A DNA stretch of 64,000 bases, taken from contig NCHQ01000009.1 of the NCBI GenBank assembly GCA_002281855.1, positions 1 to 64,000 on the forward strand, written 5' to 3'. Origin of the DNA: Rhodospirillales bacterium 24-66-33 (lineage in GTDB: Bacteria; Pseudomonadota; Alphaproteobacteria; Reyranellales; Reyranellaceae). Positions 50,181-57,498 of this stretch are shown in pieces. The position numbers were made by a program, and so were the translations under genes. The notes below the pieces were generated by a model that worked only from the letters and a program-made list of their open reading frames with translations, was not told the origin of the DNA and made no database searches. Every line of letters starts with the position of its first letter. The stretch's first letter is position 1.

Positions 50181-51148
50181 GTGGCCGAACCTCTGCTCGA
50201 CATTCGCGGACTGAAAACCTGGTTCAAGACCGAGGACGGCATGGTGCGTGCCGTCGACGGGGTCGACCTGCACATCGACAGCGGCGAAACGCTGGGCGTG
50301 GTGGGCGAGTCGGGCTGCGGCAAGACCGTCACCGCGCGCTCGGTGCTGAAGCTGATCGACATGCCGCCCGGCCGCTTCGAGGCCGGCCAGATCCTGTGGA
50401 AGGGCAGGGACCTGATCCCGCTCGAAGCCTCGGAGATGAACTCGATCCGTGCCAAGGAGATCGCGATTATCTTCCAGGAGCCGATGACCTCGCTCAATCC
50501 GGTCTACACGGTGGGAGACCAGATCGCCGAGGTGATCGAGCTGCACCAGAAGCTGTCGCGCAAGCAGGCGCTGGTCGCCGCCGCGGAGATGCTGCGGCTG
50601 GTCAACATCCCCAATCCGCAGCGCCGTGTGCACGACTATCCACACCAGTTCTCCGGCGGCATGCGCCAGCGGGTCATGATCGCCATGGCGCTCTCCTGCC
50701 AGCCCAAGCTTCTGATCGCCGACGAGCCGACCACGGCACTCGACGTCACCATCCAGGCGCAGATCCTCGAGCTGATGCAGGAGATGAAGGATCGCTTCGG
50801 CATGGCGATCATGCTGATTACCCATGCGATGGGCGTGGTCGCCGAGACCTGCCAGAGGGTGACGGTCATGTATGCCGGCCTGGTGGTCGAGGAGGCGCCC
50901 GTCGAGGCGCTGTTCGGCAATCCGCGGCATCCCTATACGCAGGGTCTGATCCGCTCGATCCCGAGGGTCGATCGCAGCGCCGCCAAGAAGCAACGGCTGG
51001 AAGCGATCGCCGGCACCGTGCCCAACATGCTCGAACCGCCACCCGGATGCCGCTTCGCCGCGCGCTGCAAGTTCGCGATGGACATCTGCAACCAGGGCAT
51101 CCCGCCGCTCAAGGAAGTCGGAACGGGCCATTTCGTGCGGTGCGTGCT

Positions 51149-51152
<4 letters not shown>
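50181..51152 (+). CDS. Peptide ABC transporter ATPase 1 (DppD-like)
   Basis: A 323-residue ATPase. Walker A is GESGCGKT (about 43-50), the signature is FSGGMRQRV and Walker B is [12 protein letters not shown]. The C-terminal oligopeptide-transporter domain has the Cys cluster seen in the Opp/Dpp group ([14 protein letters not shown] near 290-303), a probable iron-sulfur site. GTG start at 50181. The last four bases, GTGA, overlap the start of the second ATPase gene. Confidence 0.95.
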
Positions 51153-52168
<1,016 letters not shown>

Positions 52169-52247: not shown

Positions 52248-52529
52248 ATGTCAGAGGATGGCAAGAAGAGAGAGAATGCGATCCTCACCGAGAACGAGGA
52301 AGCGCTCTTTCAAATCATGAAGATCGTCATTGCGACCATTGCGGCGGGCGACGCGGTCAAGGGCAAGCAGCTGGACGAGCAACTCACCTATCTGAAGAAC
52401 GCCTTTTATTCGAACGGGAAGAAGAAGGCGGCGATCATGGCGGAGTCGATCCGGATCGCGGCATTTGCCTCGAGCCGCGATGCCGCTCGTCTGGCAGGCT
52501 TGCGGGGAAGCCCGAAGGGAAGGGCTTAG
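52248..52529 (+). CDS. Small protein of unknown function
   Basis: A 93-residue, charged, helix-rich protein (MSEDGKKRENAILTENEEALFQIMKIV start; a second Lys-rich helix near 55-65). I do not recognise a family. A GAGG site precedes the ATG at 52248. It separates the peptide transporter operon from the damaged ATPase copy, so it lies at the edge of a scarred region. Coding is plausible by codon use and ribosome site, but not certain. Confidence 0.55.
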   Translation: MSEDGKKRENAILTENEEALFQIMKIVIATIAAGDAVKGKQLDEQLTYLKNAFYSNGKKKAAIMAESIRIAAFASSRDAARLAGLRGSPKGRA

Positions 52530-52674
52530 GGCTTCCGTTTCAAGTCGACCCGCTAGGTGTTGGTGATTCGATCGTACTCGGAAAGACTCGAGTACTCCCG
52601 CTTCCACGGGCGGTTACCCCTGGGGGCCACGGAGATGCGACCGCCCGGTAGCGAGGGGTAGCAGGCTCGAGAAA

Positions 52675-53128
52675 GAGCCCAAGCTGCTCATCTGCGACGA
52701 GCCGGTCTCGGCGCTCGACGTGTCGATCCAGGCACAGGTCATCAACCTGCTGGAGGGCCTGCAGGAACAGTTCGGTCTCACCTACCTGTTCATCGCCCAC
52801 GATCTCAGCGTGGTGGAGCACATCTCGACCCGCATCGCGGTGATGTATCTCGGCCGCGTCGTCGAGATCGCGCCGGCGGCGGAACTCTACGACACGCCGC
52901 TGCATCCTTGTTCGGAGGCGCTGCTGTCGGCCGTGCCAATTCCCGGCCCGACGGTGAAGCGCAAGCGCAACATGCTGCAGGGCGACGTCCCCAGCCCGAT
53001 CCGCCCGTCCTCGGGCTGCCATTTCCACACCCGCTGCCCGATCGCCCGGCCGGACTGCAGCCAGCGTGCACCCGTTCGCGAGCAGAAGCGCCCGGGGCCA
53101 ATGGGCGGCGTGCCATTACAGCGGGTAG
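52675..53128 (+). pseudogene. Partial, frameshifted copy of the DppF-like ATPase gene
   Basis: The sequence repeats the second half of the gene at 51149-52168 (from about 51716), with about 93 percent identity by eye. It starts at the Walker B region ([15 protein letters not shown]) and lacks Walker A and the signature, so it cannot work as an ATPase. Near the end (about 53095) an extra G shifts the frame: the intact gene reads [11 protein letters not shown], and this copy would read [11 protein letters not shown] after correcting one base, with a stop at 53126-53128. It may be a decayed tandem duplication or a relic of a second transporter operon. Confidence 0.85.
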
Positions 53129-53235
53129 CGAGGGCCGGCGCGCGGATGCAGGCGGAGCTTCGCGCGGACTCATGAGAGTTGCGGCTTTCTCGTCAGTGTG
53201 AGAATTTCGCCCAGAATACTAGTACTGGCTAAATC

Positions 53236-53256
53236 ATAGAATGGCTTCCATTCTAT
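53236..53256. other. Perfect short hairpin next to the truncated rhamnosidase gene
   Basis: ATAGAATGG (53236-53244) and CCATTCTAT (53248-53256) pair perfectly around CTT. It sits just after the stop of the minus-strand GH78 fragment (53260) in an A/T-rich patch and could be a terminator stem (no clear T-run) or a relic of an insertion end. Nothing else is recognised between 53129 and 53260. Confidence 0.45.
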
Positions 53257-53259
53257 AGC

Positions 53260-54228
53260 CTAGGGTTCTGCTCCGGTACTGTCAGTTGGCCCCACAGACG
53301 AGCGGCTACGGAGTTCCATGAGCGCCTCGATATAGAAGGCGTTGACCACGGTATTCGCGTCGGTGAACACGTAGCCGTCGCGCTCGGACTTGGGCCAGTC
53401 GACGATGTCTCGCCGCCGCAGTTCAGGAGGTGTCCCCAGGAGCCCGTCCGCGCGCAGCCGCTCGGGCAGCAGCTTCGGAAGCAAGGCGTCGTAGCGTGCC
53501 GCCAGCCAGGACCGGTCCTTGGTATACATCCAGTCCGCGTGCGCCATGAACGGCATGTGGAGCGCCCATTCGGTCGGCCAGGTCGGATGGTCGAGGAGAT
53601 GATCGAACGTGGCGCGTGCGATCGCGGGATCTGGGTCGCAGGCCTGATGGCCGATCTGATTGAGATAGGCATCCGCCTCGTAGGCGATGCGTTCCCGGTC
53701 GCCATCCACATATATTCCGGCGAATGTCGTCGCCTTGATCGAATAGCGCGACAGCTCCCAGATATCGTTGAGCAGGGGATTGGAACTGGCGAAGGCGGCC
53801 GCGTCGTCCCTCCAGCCACGAGCGAAGGCAGCCTGTCGCTGGGCGCTCGCAAGATAAGCCAGGGCCGTCTCGGGCCAGCCTTCGACTTCGACCCACCGGA
53901 AGGGCATGACGGTCCCCCATTCCGCCGGCGTGGCGACGGCGGCTGGGAGCGTGTTCTTTGCATTCGGCGGGGGCGCTACGACGTTGCCACGCTCGGCTGT
54001 CGCCACGACCCGCGCATAGCGCACCGCTCCCGGGGGCGAGGTGTCGACCAGGCCGTTTGCCGTTGCCTCGCCGAAATGGAAGACAGCCTCGCCCGCAAAG
54101 CCGGGAGGCCAGTGAACCCGCAGATTGCCGAACGCCACCTTCCCGAAATCGAGTTGAAGTCGACCACCGGCAGTACGCCGAAGGCTCGCCGGCGGCTGCA
54201 GGATCAGATCTACGGGACCGCGCTTCAT
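53260..54228 (-). pseudogene. Alpha-L-rhamnosidase (GH78-like), truncated
   Basis: A 322-residue reading that contains the start of a GH78 (alpha/alpha)6 catalytic domain. NPLLNDIWELSRYSIKATTF and YVDGDRERIAYEADAYLNQ hold the acidic region expected of the active site. The family continues for 200 or more residues after the TDANTVVNAFYIEALMEL region; here the frame runs into unrelated codons (about GPTDSTGAEP) and stops. The N-terminal part is also shorter than usual. The gene is probably inactive. Between 54229 and 54454 I see no further gene. Confidence 0.65.
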
Positions 54229-54454
54229 GCGCGGGTCGGTTCGTCGAAGGTGGTTGGCATCATGGCTGGGCATTGCATTTGGGACGGGACTTGAAAATTA
54301 GGGGCAGATGGTTGCAGTTGATAGCTCTTTGGATGCAGGGTGGTCGGGTATTCGACGCCCGCTCCGGGCAGCCCCTGCGAACGACCGCTGGAATTCACCT
54401 CGGCACCCGTCTCGGCTTGGCCTGAATCGCTCCAATCGCTATACATCCTCCCGT

Positions 54455-54762
54455 GCGGACGTGGCGGAACTGGTAGACGCACCGGACTTAGACGCGACGT
54501 TTGAGTGCTCGCCGGGAAACCGGCGATGCAGAACTGCTCAAATTCGGGGAAACCTTTACTGGCAATCCCGAGCCAAGCCCGGTGACGGGAAGGTGTAGAG
54601 ACTAGACGGGCAGCACCTAAAGCAGGCGCCAAGGTGAAGGGATAGTCCAGACCACGAACGACCCTTCGGCCGCAGCCGGATGGATCGGCGGCAAAAGCCG
54701 AAGTGGTACGAAAATCCGTTGAGGGCAACCTCGTGAGGGTTCGATTCCCTCCGTCCGCACCA
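54455..54762 (+). tRNA. trnL: tRNA-Leu(UAA) interrupted by a group I intron
   Basis: Exon 1 (54455-54489) holds acceptor strand GCGGACG, a D arm and the anticodon stem CCGGA with loop C-U-U. Exon 2 (54711-54762) continues with AAAA, TCCGT, a long variable arm (GAGG-GCAA-CCTC), the T arm GAGGG-TTCGATT-CCCTC, CGTCCGC pairing with the acceptor start, and CCA encoded at 54760-54762. Joined, the loop is CUUAAAA with anticodon UAA, class II Leu. The anticodon stem has one C-T mismatch at its base (27-43). The tRNA would work only after removal of the 221-base intron. Confidence 0.92.
54490..54710 (+). ncRNA. Group I self-splicing intron in tRNA-Leu(UAA)
   Basis: The insertion splits the anticodon between U34 and A35. 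The exon end ACUU plus AGACG pairs with CGUUUGAGU through a CGA loop, giving a nine-pair P1 with the required U-G at the splice site. P2 is CGCCGG/CCGGCG with a GAAA loop. Core elements follow in order: P (ATTCGGGGAAACC), Q (AATCCCGAGCCAAGC), R (GTAGAGACTAGACGG) and S (AAGGGATAGTCC). The last base is G, as required. The size (221) and tRNA location fit subgroup IC3-like introns; there is no open reading frame inside, so no homing endonuclease. Confidence 0.92.
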
Positions 54763-54777
54763 TCTCTTCAGAACATC

Positions 54778-55914
54778 TCAGCCGGCCGCAAATCGCGCCG
54801 GCGACAATCCCTCTTCCGTGACCCCGAGATCGGCGACCTCGGCGGGCAAGGCCTTGCCCAGCGCCAGCGCGGCGGCGAGCTGGCCGGCGGCGTAGCCGGT
54901 CTGGATGCCATAGCCGCCCTGGCCGGCCAGCCAGAAGAAGCCCTCGACCTTGGGGTCGTAGCCCGCGACCAGGTTCTTGTCGTGCACGAAGGAGCGCAGG
55001 CCGGCCCACTTGTTCTTGATGCGGCGGATCTGCAGCGTGCTCGCGGTCTCGATGCGCTCGACGGCGGTGGCGACGTCGATTTCCTCGGGTTGGGCGTCGC
55101 AGGGCTGCGAGGGCGTCTCGTCGGCGAGCGAGCCCAGGAACTGACCGACCTCGGGTTTGAAATAGAAGCTCTCGTCGAAGTCGATCAGCATCGGCAATGG
55201 TCCGAGATCGAGCCCCTGGGGCGCGTCGAAGGTGAAGGCGGTGCGCCGCTTCGGCACCAGCCCGATCGGCACGCAGCCGGCGAGGCCGCCCAGCACGTCG
55301 GCCCAGGCGCCCGCCGCGTCGATGATGTTGGTCGCCCGCACGAGGTCGCCATCGCGCAAGGTCACATTCCACAGCCCGTCGAGGCGGACGAGGCCGAGGA
55401 CCTCGGCATCGAGGCGAAGCACCGCGCCGGCGGCGCGCGCACCCTTCAGGAAGCCGCCGTGGATCGCGGCCACATCCATGTCGTCGGCTTCGGGTTCGAA
55501 CACGGCGCCGCCGCCCGCCATCTCGGGCTTGAGGATGGGGAGGCGGCGCAGCACTTCGGCGGGCTCCAGCCAGCGGACCGAGGGCACGAGGCGTGCATAA
55601 TCCGCCGCGGCCGCCTTCACGGCCGCTTCCTGTCCGGCATGGCCGGCGACCAGCGCGCCGCGCGGCGTCAGCAGGGGATGGTCGGCAAAACCCGGCGGGG
55701 GATTGCGGTAGAAGCGGCCCGAGGCGACCGTGATGGCGCGGATCTGGGCGCTGCCGTAGGTCTCGGAGTGCAGCGCTGCCGAGCGTCCCGTCGTGTGATA
55801 GGCGGGCACGTTCTCGCGCTCGAGGATGATCACTTTCGCATGGGGCGCGAGGTGATAGGCGACGGAGACGCCGGCGATGCCGGCGCCGACAATGGCGAAA
55901 TCGAAATCCTGCAT
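54778..55914 (-). CDS. FAD-dependent oxidoreductase (DAO/glycine-oxidase type)
   Basis: A 378-residue flavoprotein. The FAD-binding GXGXXG lies at residues 9-14 (IVGAGIAGVSVAY), with the acidic ribose-binding ERENVPAYHTTGRSAALHSE region, and the C-terminal block FFWLAGQGGYGIQTGYAAGQ. The family oxidises amino acids or amines, often with a small secondary substrate; the present one is unknown. ATG at 55914. It faces the acyl-CoA synthetase across 63 bp. Confidence 0.9.
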   Translation of the reverse strand: MQDFDFAIVGAGIAGVSVAYHLAPHAKVIILERENVPAYHTTGRSAALHSETYGSAQIRAITVASGRFYRNPPPGFADHPLLTPRGALVAGHAGQEAAVKAAAADYARLVPSVRWLEPAEVLRRLPILKPEMAGGGAVFEPEADDMDVAAIHGGFLKGARAAGAVLRLDAEVLGLVRLDGLWNVTLRDGDLVRATNIIDAAGAWADVLGGLAGCVPIGLVPKRRTAFTFDAPQGLDLGPLPMLIDFDESFYFKPEVGQFLGSLADETPSQPCDAQPEEIDVATAVERIETASTLQIRRIKNKWAGLRSFVHDKNLVAGYDPKVEGFFWLAGQGGYGIQTGYAAGQLAAALALGKALPAEVADLGVTEEGLSPARFAAG

Positions 55915-55977: not shown

Positions 55978-57498
55978 ATGAACATCGCCCATCTGCTGCT
56001 GGGCTCCGCGCAGGAGTTCCGCGACCTGCCCGCGCTGGCCCGCGGGATGTCGACGCACCTCAACTATCGTGAGCTGTGGCGCAAGGTCTCGGTGATGAGC
56101 ACGCATCTCGTCGCCCGCTTCGGCCTCGCGCGCGGCGACCGCGTGGCCTTCGCCATGGCCAATTGCGTCGAATCGATCGAGGTCATGTACGCGATCTGGC
56201 ACGCCGGCCTGTGCGCCGTGCCGATGAACGCCAAGCTGCACGCCCGGGAATTCGCGTTCATCCTGGAGAATTCGGGTGCGAAGCTGTGTTTCGTGACACC
56301 CGACCTCGCCGGCACGATCGCCGAGGCCGCGAAGGAGGCGCCGGAGCTGAAGGAGATCGTCGACGTCACGACCCGCTCGTACAGCTTCATGGCGGTGGGC
56401 GATCCGAGCCCGATCGCCGATGCCCAACCCACCGACCTGGCTTGGCTGTTCTATACATCCGGCACCACCGGCCGGCCCAAGGGCGCCATGCTGACGCACC
56501 GTAATCTGCTGGCAATGACGCTCAACTACTATGCCGACGTCGACCGTCCGCCGCCCGGCGGCTCGATCGTGCATGCCGCCCCGATCAGCCACGGCTCGGG
56601 CCTGTGGAACTTCCCGATGCTGGCGCGCGGCTCGGTGCAGGTCTTCCCGGAGAGCGGCAAGTACGAGGTACCCGAGACGGTCGAGCTGATGAACCGCTGG
56701 CCGCAATGCTCGATCTTCCTCGCGCCCACCATGGTGAAGCGGCTGATCGAGCATGGCAGCGTGTCGGAGCTGAAGCCGGATGCGCTGCGGCTGATCACCT
56801 ATGGCGGCGCGCCGATGTACGTCTCGGACCTCAAGCGCGCGCTCGAGGTGCTGGGCAACAAGCTGGCGCAGCTCTATGGCCAGGGCGAGAGCCCGATGAC
56901 CATCACGCATCTCAGCCGCGAGTATCACGGGGACCGCACCCACCCGCGCTGGGAGCAGCGCCTGGCCTCGGCCGGCCGCGCCGACAGCTGCATGGAGGTT
57001 CGGATCGTCGACGAGGCGGGGCGTCCGCTGCCCGTGGGCGAGGTCGGCGAGATCATCTGCAAGGGCGATCCCGTGATGGCCGGCTACTGGAACAATCCCG
57101 AGGCCACGGCGCGCTCGCTGCGCGACGGCTGGCTGTGGACCGGCGATGTCGGCGCCTTCGACGAGGAGGGGCTGCTCACGCTCAAGGACCGCTCGAAGGA
57201 TATGATCATCTCGGGCGGGTCCAACATCTATCCGCGCGAGATCGAGGACGTGCTGAACCTCCATGCCGGCGTCGCCGAATGTTCGGTGGTCGGCCGCCCG
57301 CATCCGGAATGGGGCGAGGAGGTGGTGGCGTTCATCGTCGCCCGCGCTGGGCGAACCCTCTCGCCCGCCGAGCTCGACCAGCTCTGCCTCGACAACATCG
57401 CCCGCTTCAAGCGCCCCAAGGACTACCGGTTCATCGAGGCGCTGCCGAAGAACAACTACGGCAAGATCCTGAAGACGGAGCTCAGAAAACTCCTCTAG
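55978..57498 (+). CDS. AMP-forming acyl-CoA synthetase
   Basis: A 506-residue ANL-superfamily ligase. The P-loop-like motif is YTSGTTGRPKGAMLTHRNLL (about 159-178), the adenylation motif is YGQGESPMT, and the hinge and C-terminal Lys are in GDVGAFDEEGLLTLKDRSKDMIISGGSNIYPREIE and NNYGKILKTELR. It activates a carboxylic acid with ATP and CoA. The acid is unknown. The stop is followed by a palindromic repeat, then the dienelactone hydrolase gene, so a common transcript is uncertain. Confidence 0.92.
   Translation: MNIAHLLLGSAQEFRDLPALARGMSTHLNYRELWRKVSVMSTHLVARFGLARGDRVAFAMANCVESIEVMYAIWHAGLCAVPMNAKLHAREFAFILENSGAKLCFVTPDLAGTIAEAAKEAPELKEIVDVTTRSYSFMAVGDPSPIADAQPTDLAWLFYTSGTTGRPKGAMLTHRNLLAMTLNYYADVDRPPPGGSIVHAAPISHGSGLWNFPMLARGSVQVFPESGKYEVPETVELMNRWPQCSIFLAPTMVKRLIEHGSVSELKPDALRLITYGGAPMYVSDLKRALEVLGNKLAQLYGQGESPMTITHLSREYHGDRTHPRWEQRLASAGRADSCMEVRIVDEAGRPLPVGEVGEIICKGDPVMAGYWNNPEATARSLRDGWLWTGDVGAFDEEGLLTLKDRSKDMIISGGSNIYPREIEDVLNLHAGVAECSVVGRPHPEWGEEVVAFIVARAGRTLSPAELDQLCLDNIARFKRPKDYRFIEALPKNNYGKILKTELRKLL

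Follow-up and report, generated by a model that had tools for sequence, protein, structure and literature searches.

Group I Introns in Bacterial tRNA Genes

How introns that lack an endonuclease spread through the tRNA genes of distant bacteria has been an open question since the 1990s, when "horizontal transmission and transposition" was invoked without a vehicle. Alphaproteobacterial group I introns in tRNA-Arg(CCU) were reportedly described from Agrobacterium by Paquin et al. in 1999. The tRNA-Arg(CCU) intron BbgpI of Bartonella was later found to splice in vivo and in vitro (PMC7717549), and putative group I introns in tRNA-Leu(TAA) were reported for Beggiatoa and Thiomargarita (PMC4853749). 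Further earlier reports of such introns may exist. Introns of this kind easily escape annotation, as those in tRNA-Ile2 and fMet genes were missed by tRNAscan-SE (PMC8450103). A second line of work concerns tRNA-dependent lysogeny in actinobacteriophages, which combines an integrase and a core of roughly 10 bp with a carried tRNA of the same isotype (Guerrero-Bustamante and Hatfull 2024, PMC10865867).

An Intron-Split tRNA-Leu(UAA) Gene in Reyranella

In the window, that is the whole stretch of 64,000 nucleotides that was analysed, a group I intron splits the tRNA-Leu(UAA) gene at 54455-54762 on the forward strand between U34 and A35. Its parts are as follows.

54455..54489, + strand: 5' exon of tRNA-Leu(UAA), with the acceptor 5' strand, the D arm, the anticodon stem 5' strand and C32 U33 U34 (alignment of relatives, L139 empty-site allele)
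54490..54710, + strand: group I intron of 221 nt with the terminal omega-G at 54710 (RF00028 53.7 bits, covariation)
54711..54762, + strand: 3' exon with A35-A36, the remainder of tRNA-Leu(UAA) and an encoded CCA (alignment of relatives, L139 empty-site allele)

ARAGORN detected no tRNA at this locus with the intron option off and a tRNA-Leu at 54455-54762 with the option on, with the junction misplaced; the anticodons it first proposed (AAG, and Phe GAA for the type B genes described below) were rejected as products of misplaced junctions. The splice junction was fixed unambiguously at CTT/AAAA by an intronless allele in another Reyranella genome (L139, G049), which has nearly the exons of the type B intron genes and an upstream flank in common with them, and from which the intron is absent. 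A sequence-only reading of the locus had claimed a good class II tRNA-Leu with anticodon UAA. Gene and anticodon stand; as a small correction, the mature anticodon stem contains a C27.U43 mismatch, which is found in other Alphaproteobacteria too.

The remaining tRNA-Leu genes in the genome of this soil bacterium, a Reyranella (6.12 Mb, 99.8% complete, 54 contigs), are intronless and have the anticodons UAG, GAG, CAG and CAA. An intact intronless tRNA-Leu(UAA) elsewhere, which the sequence-only reading had named as evidence that would count against it, was sought across the genome with a tRNA model and two contiguous patterns, and no second UAA gene was found. As the remaining tRNA-Leu genes do not read UUA by standard wobble rules, splicing of the window gene should be essential.

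Fold and Class of the Intron

The covariance search that had been proposed as a check matched RF00028 (Intron_gpI) at 54479-54670 on the forward strand with 53.7 bits (E 7.7e-11; gathering score 50); the genome contains no other match to RF00028. The fold z-score of the intron is -3.39. Over 35 divergent relatives, 98.2% of the pair cells are paired, compared with 27-43% in slid controls, and both sides have changed in 23 of 49 pairs, versus 10.1 pairs after shuffling and 6-8 in the slid controls. The following helices were located.

54486..54506, + strand: P1, exon ACUU (54486-54489) with the internal guide GAGU (54503-54506), U.G at the splice site and an AGACG/CGUUU extension (MFE fold, covariation)
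54507..54529, + strand: P2 with a GAAA tetraloop (compensatory changes in 6/9 pairs)
54534..54613, + strand: P3 (54534-54539 with 54608-54613), enclosing P4-P6 and the P7 5' strand (double changes in 4/6 pairs)
54598..54648, + strand: P7 (54598-54604 with 54643-54648), the guanosine-binding helix, and P8 (54614-54617 with 54633-54636) (covariation)
54651..54707, + strand: P9.0 (54651-54655 with 54703-54707) and the P9 hairpin (54689-54700) (alignment, covariation)

The helices follow each other in the order P1, P2, P3, P4, P5 (very short), P6, P7, P8, P9.0 and P9. Covariation was found for the core of P3, P4, P6, P7 and P8, to which P4 itself contributes no evidence because it never varies; one pair of P7 changes from A-U to G-C and to U-A among the relatives. 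The U-G pair of P1 at the splice site is invariant in 35/35 sequences, as is the G preceding the 3' exon among the aligned sequences. Gene, anticodon, group I class and the U34/A35 site, as well as the P1 with a U-G splice pair, the GAAA-capped P2 and the core elements in order that had been read by eye, are borne out by RF00028, covariation and the L139 allele. Class IC3 is read from the insertion in a tRNA anticodon loop, the GNRA L2 and the short core without large peripheral domains, the Rfam 15 model applied being general and not IC3-specific.

No homing-endonuclease ORF was found in the 221-nt window intron, and a homing-endonuclease hypothesis was discarded for this intron on that ground. 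The L9 tetraloop of the window (54693-54696) reads AAAA and that of the other aligned relatives GNRA; beside the very short P5, this may mean a weaker L9-P5 contact.

The window gene is almost certainly a real gene with an intron of the self-splicing type. With the structure established, the folded transcript would be cut behind U34, positioned by the U.G pair of P1, through attack of exogenous guanosine; the freed 5' exon would then attack behind the terminal G, and its ligation to the 3' exon would yield the only UUA-reading tRNA of the genome.

Distribution

Host and gene had been described as unusual for this class of intron, a view that can no longer be held, because a class sample and a scan of name-bearing sequences show many carriers, and Beggiatoa and Thiomargarita had been published before. 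The tRNA-Leu(UAA) intron is present in 19 of 386 class-sampled alphaproteobacterial genomes (about 5%) and an IC3-like core motif in 52 of the 386. Hosts in this sample are Leu(UAA) (19 genomes), Leu(CAA), Arg(CCU), Lys(CUU/UUU) and Thr(GGU), and the splice site always follows a U. For the Leu(UAA) form alone, the name-bearing scan returned at least 118 stretches, with Bradyrhizobium, Sphingomonas, Caulobacter, Phenylobacterium, Paracoccus, Zymomonas, Tahibacter, gammaproteobacteria and cyanobacteria among the matches listed.

Within the family of the window, 13-15 of 75 genomes carry related introns. Type A (UAA) comprises the window, R. soli and two more genomes, type B (UAA) seven genomes, and type C two genomes with an intron in tRNA-Leu(CAA) that is spliced after U33. 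An apparent lack of tRNA-Leu(UAA) in thirty Reyranella genomes was dismissed as a pattern artefact; the resident gene of G048, for example, is intact with GGTAGACATA.

Group I introns spliced after U33 occur in tRNA-Leu(CAA) at L003 (G031) and L010 (G057) and also at L094 and L100; G031 additionally retains, upstream of its intron gene, a displaced 5' half of the resident CAA gene. Apparent group I introns are also seen in alphaproteobacterial tRNA-Lys after U35 (L089, L090, L093, L099, L115, L121, L122 and L129) and in tRNA-Thr(GGU) after U36 (L101, L102, L105, L116 and L118). A Bdellovibrionales MAG (L226) takes the proteobacterial intron lineage in tRNA-Leu beyond the Alpha- and Gammaproteobacteria; a second 5' half of a tRNA-Leu lies upstream there. 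L067 (G049 contig C195) is an intron-like core without recognisable tRNA exons and probably a relic.

Origin of the Intron

In the maximum-likelihood tree, a branch with 100/100 support sets off all cyanobacterial introns as one group, whose branch measures 2.0 changes per column. The window intron falls with Reyranella type A among the alphaproteobacterial Leu(UAA) introns. It is 90.5% identical to the closest intron, that of R. soli (NBRC 108950), at most 84% to other alphaproteobacterial Leu(UAA) introns, 73-74% to the best alphaproteobacterial Arg and Thr introns and 60% to the best cyanobacterial intron. Nesting of type A inside the cyanobacteria was rejected by the AU test (p 1e-4 and 3e-14), whereas cyanobacteria merely as neighbours of type A (p 0.2) and a clade of proteobacterial and cyanobacterial Leu(UAA) introns (p 0.29) were not rejected, and one clade of all proteobacterial Leu(UAA) introns came at no cost. 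These tests were run without L183 (Tatlockia MAG) and L092 (G143 contig C103). L183 is a cyanobacterium-like and L092 a plastid-like tRNA-Leu intron in proteobacterial bins, and both are probably assembly contamination.

The sequence-only reading had noted that the site is that of the cyanobacterial tRNA-Leu intron, and tRNA and U34/A35 position are in fact the same. This identity, and the fact that one pattern finds the cyanobacterial Leu(UAA) introns as well, would fit a recent lateral transfer from cyanobacteria or plastids into the same tRNA-Leu site. Such a transfer is nevertheless extremely improbable, given the 100/100-supported cyanobacterial group on its long branch, the rejected nesting and a best identity of only 60%, and for the sampled cyanobacteria a recent origin is ruled out. 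The phylogeny that had been proposed as a check therefore leaves the window intron outside the cyanobacterial and plastid group, and we assign it with great confidence to a proteobacterial lineage. Lateral spread or ancient retention had been offered as explanations; lateral spread is upheld within the Proteobacteria, where whole tRNA genes were swapped, and fails as transfer from the sampled cyanobacteria.

Islands That Break and Replace tRNA-Leu

In the Reyranella genome G033, the resident tRNA-Leu(UAA) is split, with nucleotides 1-37 at 26465-26429 and nucleotides 39-87 at 22652-22602; the halves are about 3.8 kb apart and a type B intron gene lies between them. A 5' relic of the resident tRNA-Leu is kept in four further Reyranella genomes. 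At about 20 of the named loci listed and at several Reyranella loci, the intron gene is preceded by a truncated 5' half of a tRNA-Leu. Where the gap is longer (about 1.4-1.6 kb), one co-oriented tyrosine recombinase of 387-449 amino acids was identified with Pfam at 13 of 14 examined loci, ending 58-180 nt before the intron gene; one longer-gap locus, L158, is without it. By similarity, an adjacent integrase is present at only 14 of the 85 named proteobacterial loci listed with enough upstream sequence, and such an integrase was found upstream of the intron gene at none of 15 cyanobacterial loci among the matches listed.

The displaced 3' half, which lacks the D arm, was found in 11 islands. 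It pairs with the displaced 5' half in 7/7 acceptor and 5/5 anticodon-stem positions in 10 of the 11, and in 6/7 and 5/5 positions at L149. In seven islands attL and attR lie on a single contig and on the same strand, and these islands measure 22.2, 27.1, 31.3, 34.6, 38.0, 49.5 and 58.3 kb. Devosia, Enterovirga, Caulobacter and Phenylobacterium are among the island carriers, with the integrases of the last two at L211 and L180. The sequence common to attL and attR narrows to CTTAAAA, the 7-nt anticodon loop, and the rejoined halves gave tRNA-Leu(UAA) in 10/10 cases. The islands carry a VirD2-like relaxase, T4SS coupling proteins, restriction-modification and toxin-like Fic genes, and with relaxase and T4SS coupling among this cargo they are mobilizable. 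Integrase and split resident tRNA thus flank the intron gene in these relatives, and as far as sequence can tell it is highly probable that island-borne rescue genes are involved.

A different model, in which the island gives only the 5' exon and the intron and the 3' half of the host completes the tRNA, was ruled out, as the two exons of the intron gene pair with each other in 7/7 and 5/5 positions wherever the 3' end is cleanly placed. The displaced 5' halves often mismatch the 3' exon of the intron gene, and the matching 3' half is kilobases away. Rescue genes need not carry an intron, since intronless ones exist: at L131 (G006), L134 (G012) and L135 (G021), a tRNA-Leu(UAA) without intron and with an altered anticodon stem is directly followed by the displaced 3' half of another tRNA-Leu.

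Relatives of the integrase on plasmids (about 50% identity) had no tRNA or intron nearby. One IMG/VR contig carries the integrase and a relic, with no rescue gene found within reach, and the IMG/VR scan and the plasmid integrase homologs yielded no further rescue-tRNA case; a phage collection gave no match.

The tRNA-Lys locus L089 has the same layout, with a displaced 5' half followed by AT-rich sequence. At L146, L147, L170, L189 and L003 a motif, TAGGTGCA-N-ATAGGTGCA, lies about 80-105 nt upstream of the intron. It also precedes the intronless tRNA-Leu(CAA) of the window genome (L050, C46), and a promoter or an integrase-arm site is possible. At L005/L145 (G038 contig C111), two tRNA-Leu(UAA) intron genes on opposite strands are separated by about 0.5 kb, one of them an intact type A and the other a degenerate type B gene, and this pair is two generations of replacement at one locus.

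The Window Locus

The surroundings of the window gene are made up as follows.

50181..52168, + strand: conserved upstream flank, oligopeptide ABC transporter ATPases
52522..54785: segment of 2.26 kb that is absent from eight close relatives and carries the intron-bearing tRNA gene (locus comparison)
52675-53175: truncated second copy of an oligopeptide ABC ATPase, within this segment
53263-54273, - strand: truncated alpha-L-rhamnosidase, within this segment
54778..57498: conserved downstream flank, FAD-dependent oxidoreductase (- strand) and AMP-binding enzyme (+ strand, 55978-57498)

At the same locus in the eight close relatives, the tRNA-Leu(UAA) gene has no intron, its body is a different one and its orientation is reversed, so the whole tRNA gene was exchanged and not the intron alone. 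No integrase and no second tRNA-Leu half was found in the window by similarity and by a search for tRNA halves. The locus has been hit by tRNA-Leu-breaking elements in sister species, as in G012 and G021 the ABC transporter of the window locus is adjoined by other rescue genes that have displaced 3' halves at their side. From the behaviour of the relatives and from these other elements at the same locus, we lean towards the window copy being derived from an integrative island, that is a leftover rescue gene.

The same exchange might have come about by homologous or illegitimate recombination of the whole gene on the 2.26-kb segment (52522-54785) without any integrase. The truncated ABC-ATPase and rhamnosidase pieces that adjoin the gene, the reversed orientation and the lack of an integrase in the window are what such a swap could leave behind; however, elements that break tRNA-Leu target this very locus in sister species and the same intron family rides on integrase islands elsewhere, which makes a swap of this kind rather unlikely. 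Less probable still is vertical retention of an ancient intron with loss in most lineages and without a role for mobile elements in the lineage of the window. It would agree with the phylogenetic tests, in which a single proteobacterial Leu(UAA) clade costs nothing and joining it with the cyanobacterial Leu(UAA) introns is not rejected (p 0.29), but the introns are patchy in the family (13-15/75 genomes), two intron types occur within one genus, and intron loss alone is insufficient to explain a gene of different body at the same locus in close relatives. Decay of the intron-bearing gene into a pseudogene is very improbable: the C27.U43 mismatch and the AAAA of L9 are visible against the relatives, but this is the sole UAA gene found, its core is intact, and anticodon stems with four of five pairs recur in other alphaproteobacterial intron genes.

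Proposed Mechanism and a Possible Role of the Intron

The reading preferred here combines a spliced, sole UUA-reading tRNA, a rescue gene carried by islands and the window copy as a leftover, and we give it as a whole a probability of roughly three in four. In Alphaproteobacteria, such intron genes move as whole tRNA genes. In the relatives, the tyrosine integrase of the island appears to insert into the anticodon loop of the resident tRNA-Leu and thereby destroys it, and the island's own intron-split tRNA-Leu(UAA) would replace the broken resident. The window copy would be such a leftover rescue gene, or a whole gene acquired from an element of this type, whose integrase and relics have since gone.

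The intron lies in the middle of the 7-bp attL/attR core, CTT^AAAA. Since it interrupts the core, the rescue gene would no longer match the core site of the integrase, and it is tempting, if speculative, to ascribe to the intron a masking role that shields the rescue gene from its own integrase. An island can carry a working essential tRNA only when its own integrase spares that copy, and an intron in the 7-bp core, if this idea is true, would spare it and leave the mature tRNA unchanged. Equally tentative is the broader idea that introns in tRNA anticodon loops are kept and spread largely by hiding the core site, with the window gene as a domesticated survivor. Against a strict masking rule stand the intronless rescue genes of G006, G012 and G021, whose difference lies in the anticodon stem. 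Nor is the site by itself proof of masking, because cyanobacteria have an intron there without such an integrase.

Comparison with Known Systems

The new part is the islands of the relatives that carry an intron-split rescue tRNA. These integrative islands, which disrupt tRNA-Leu and supply an intron-split copy in its place, make a vehicle for introns without endonuclease visible, and a selectable and testable role is suggested for a self-splicing intron. As tRNA finders miss such genes, essential tRNAs may be reported absent and island ends may go unrecognised.

The cyanobacterial tRNA-Leu(UAA) intron resembles the window intron in its tRNA, the U34/A35 site, the logic of P1 and the order of the core, but belongs to a separate lineage (about 60% identity, long supported branch) and has no integrase of the island family upstream (0/15 among the matches listed). 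The alphaproteobacterial introns in tRNA-Arg(CCU) belong to the same proteobacterial lineage as the window intron (at most 73% identity) and share the anticodon-loop site, the lack of an ORF and the sporadic distribution, whereas their host tRNA is a different one and splicing occurs after U36; displaced tRNA halves were not seen at eight Arg loci. Beggiatoa and Thiomargarita likewise have a proteobacterial tRNA-Leu(UAA) with a putative group I intron, besides tRNA-Arg(TCT) (PMC4853749), but are Gammaproteobacteria, and that report gives no fold of the tRNA introns, phylogeny or element context.

The islands themselves extend tRNA-dependent integration from actinophages, for which no intron was described (PMC10865867), to mobilizable elements of Proteobacteria, whose rescue tRNA is split by an intron in the core. 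IStrons (PMC4227781) are similar in that a group I intron is partnered with a mobile DNA element; there, however, the intron covers the insertion itself, whereas in the islands described here it interrupts the rescue gene that is carried.
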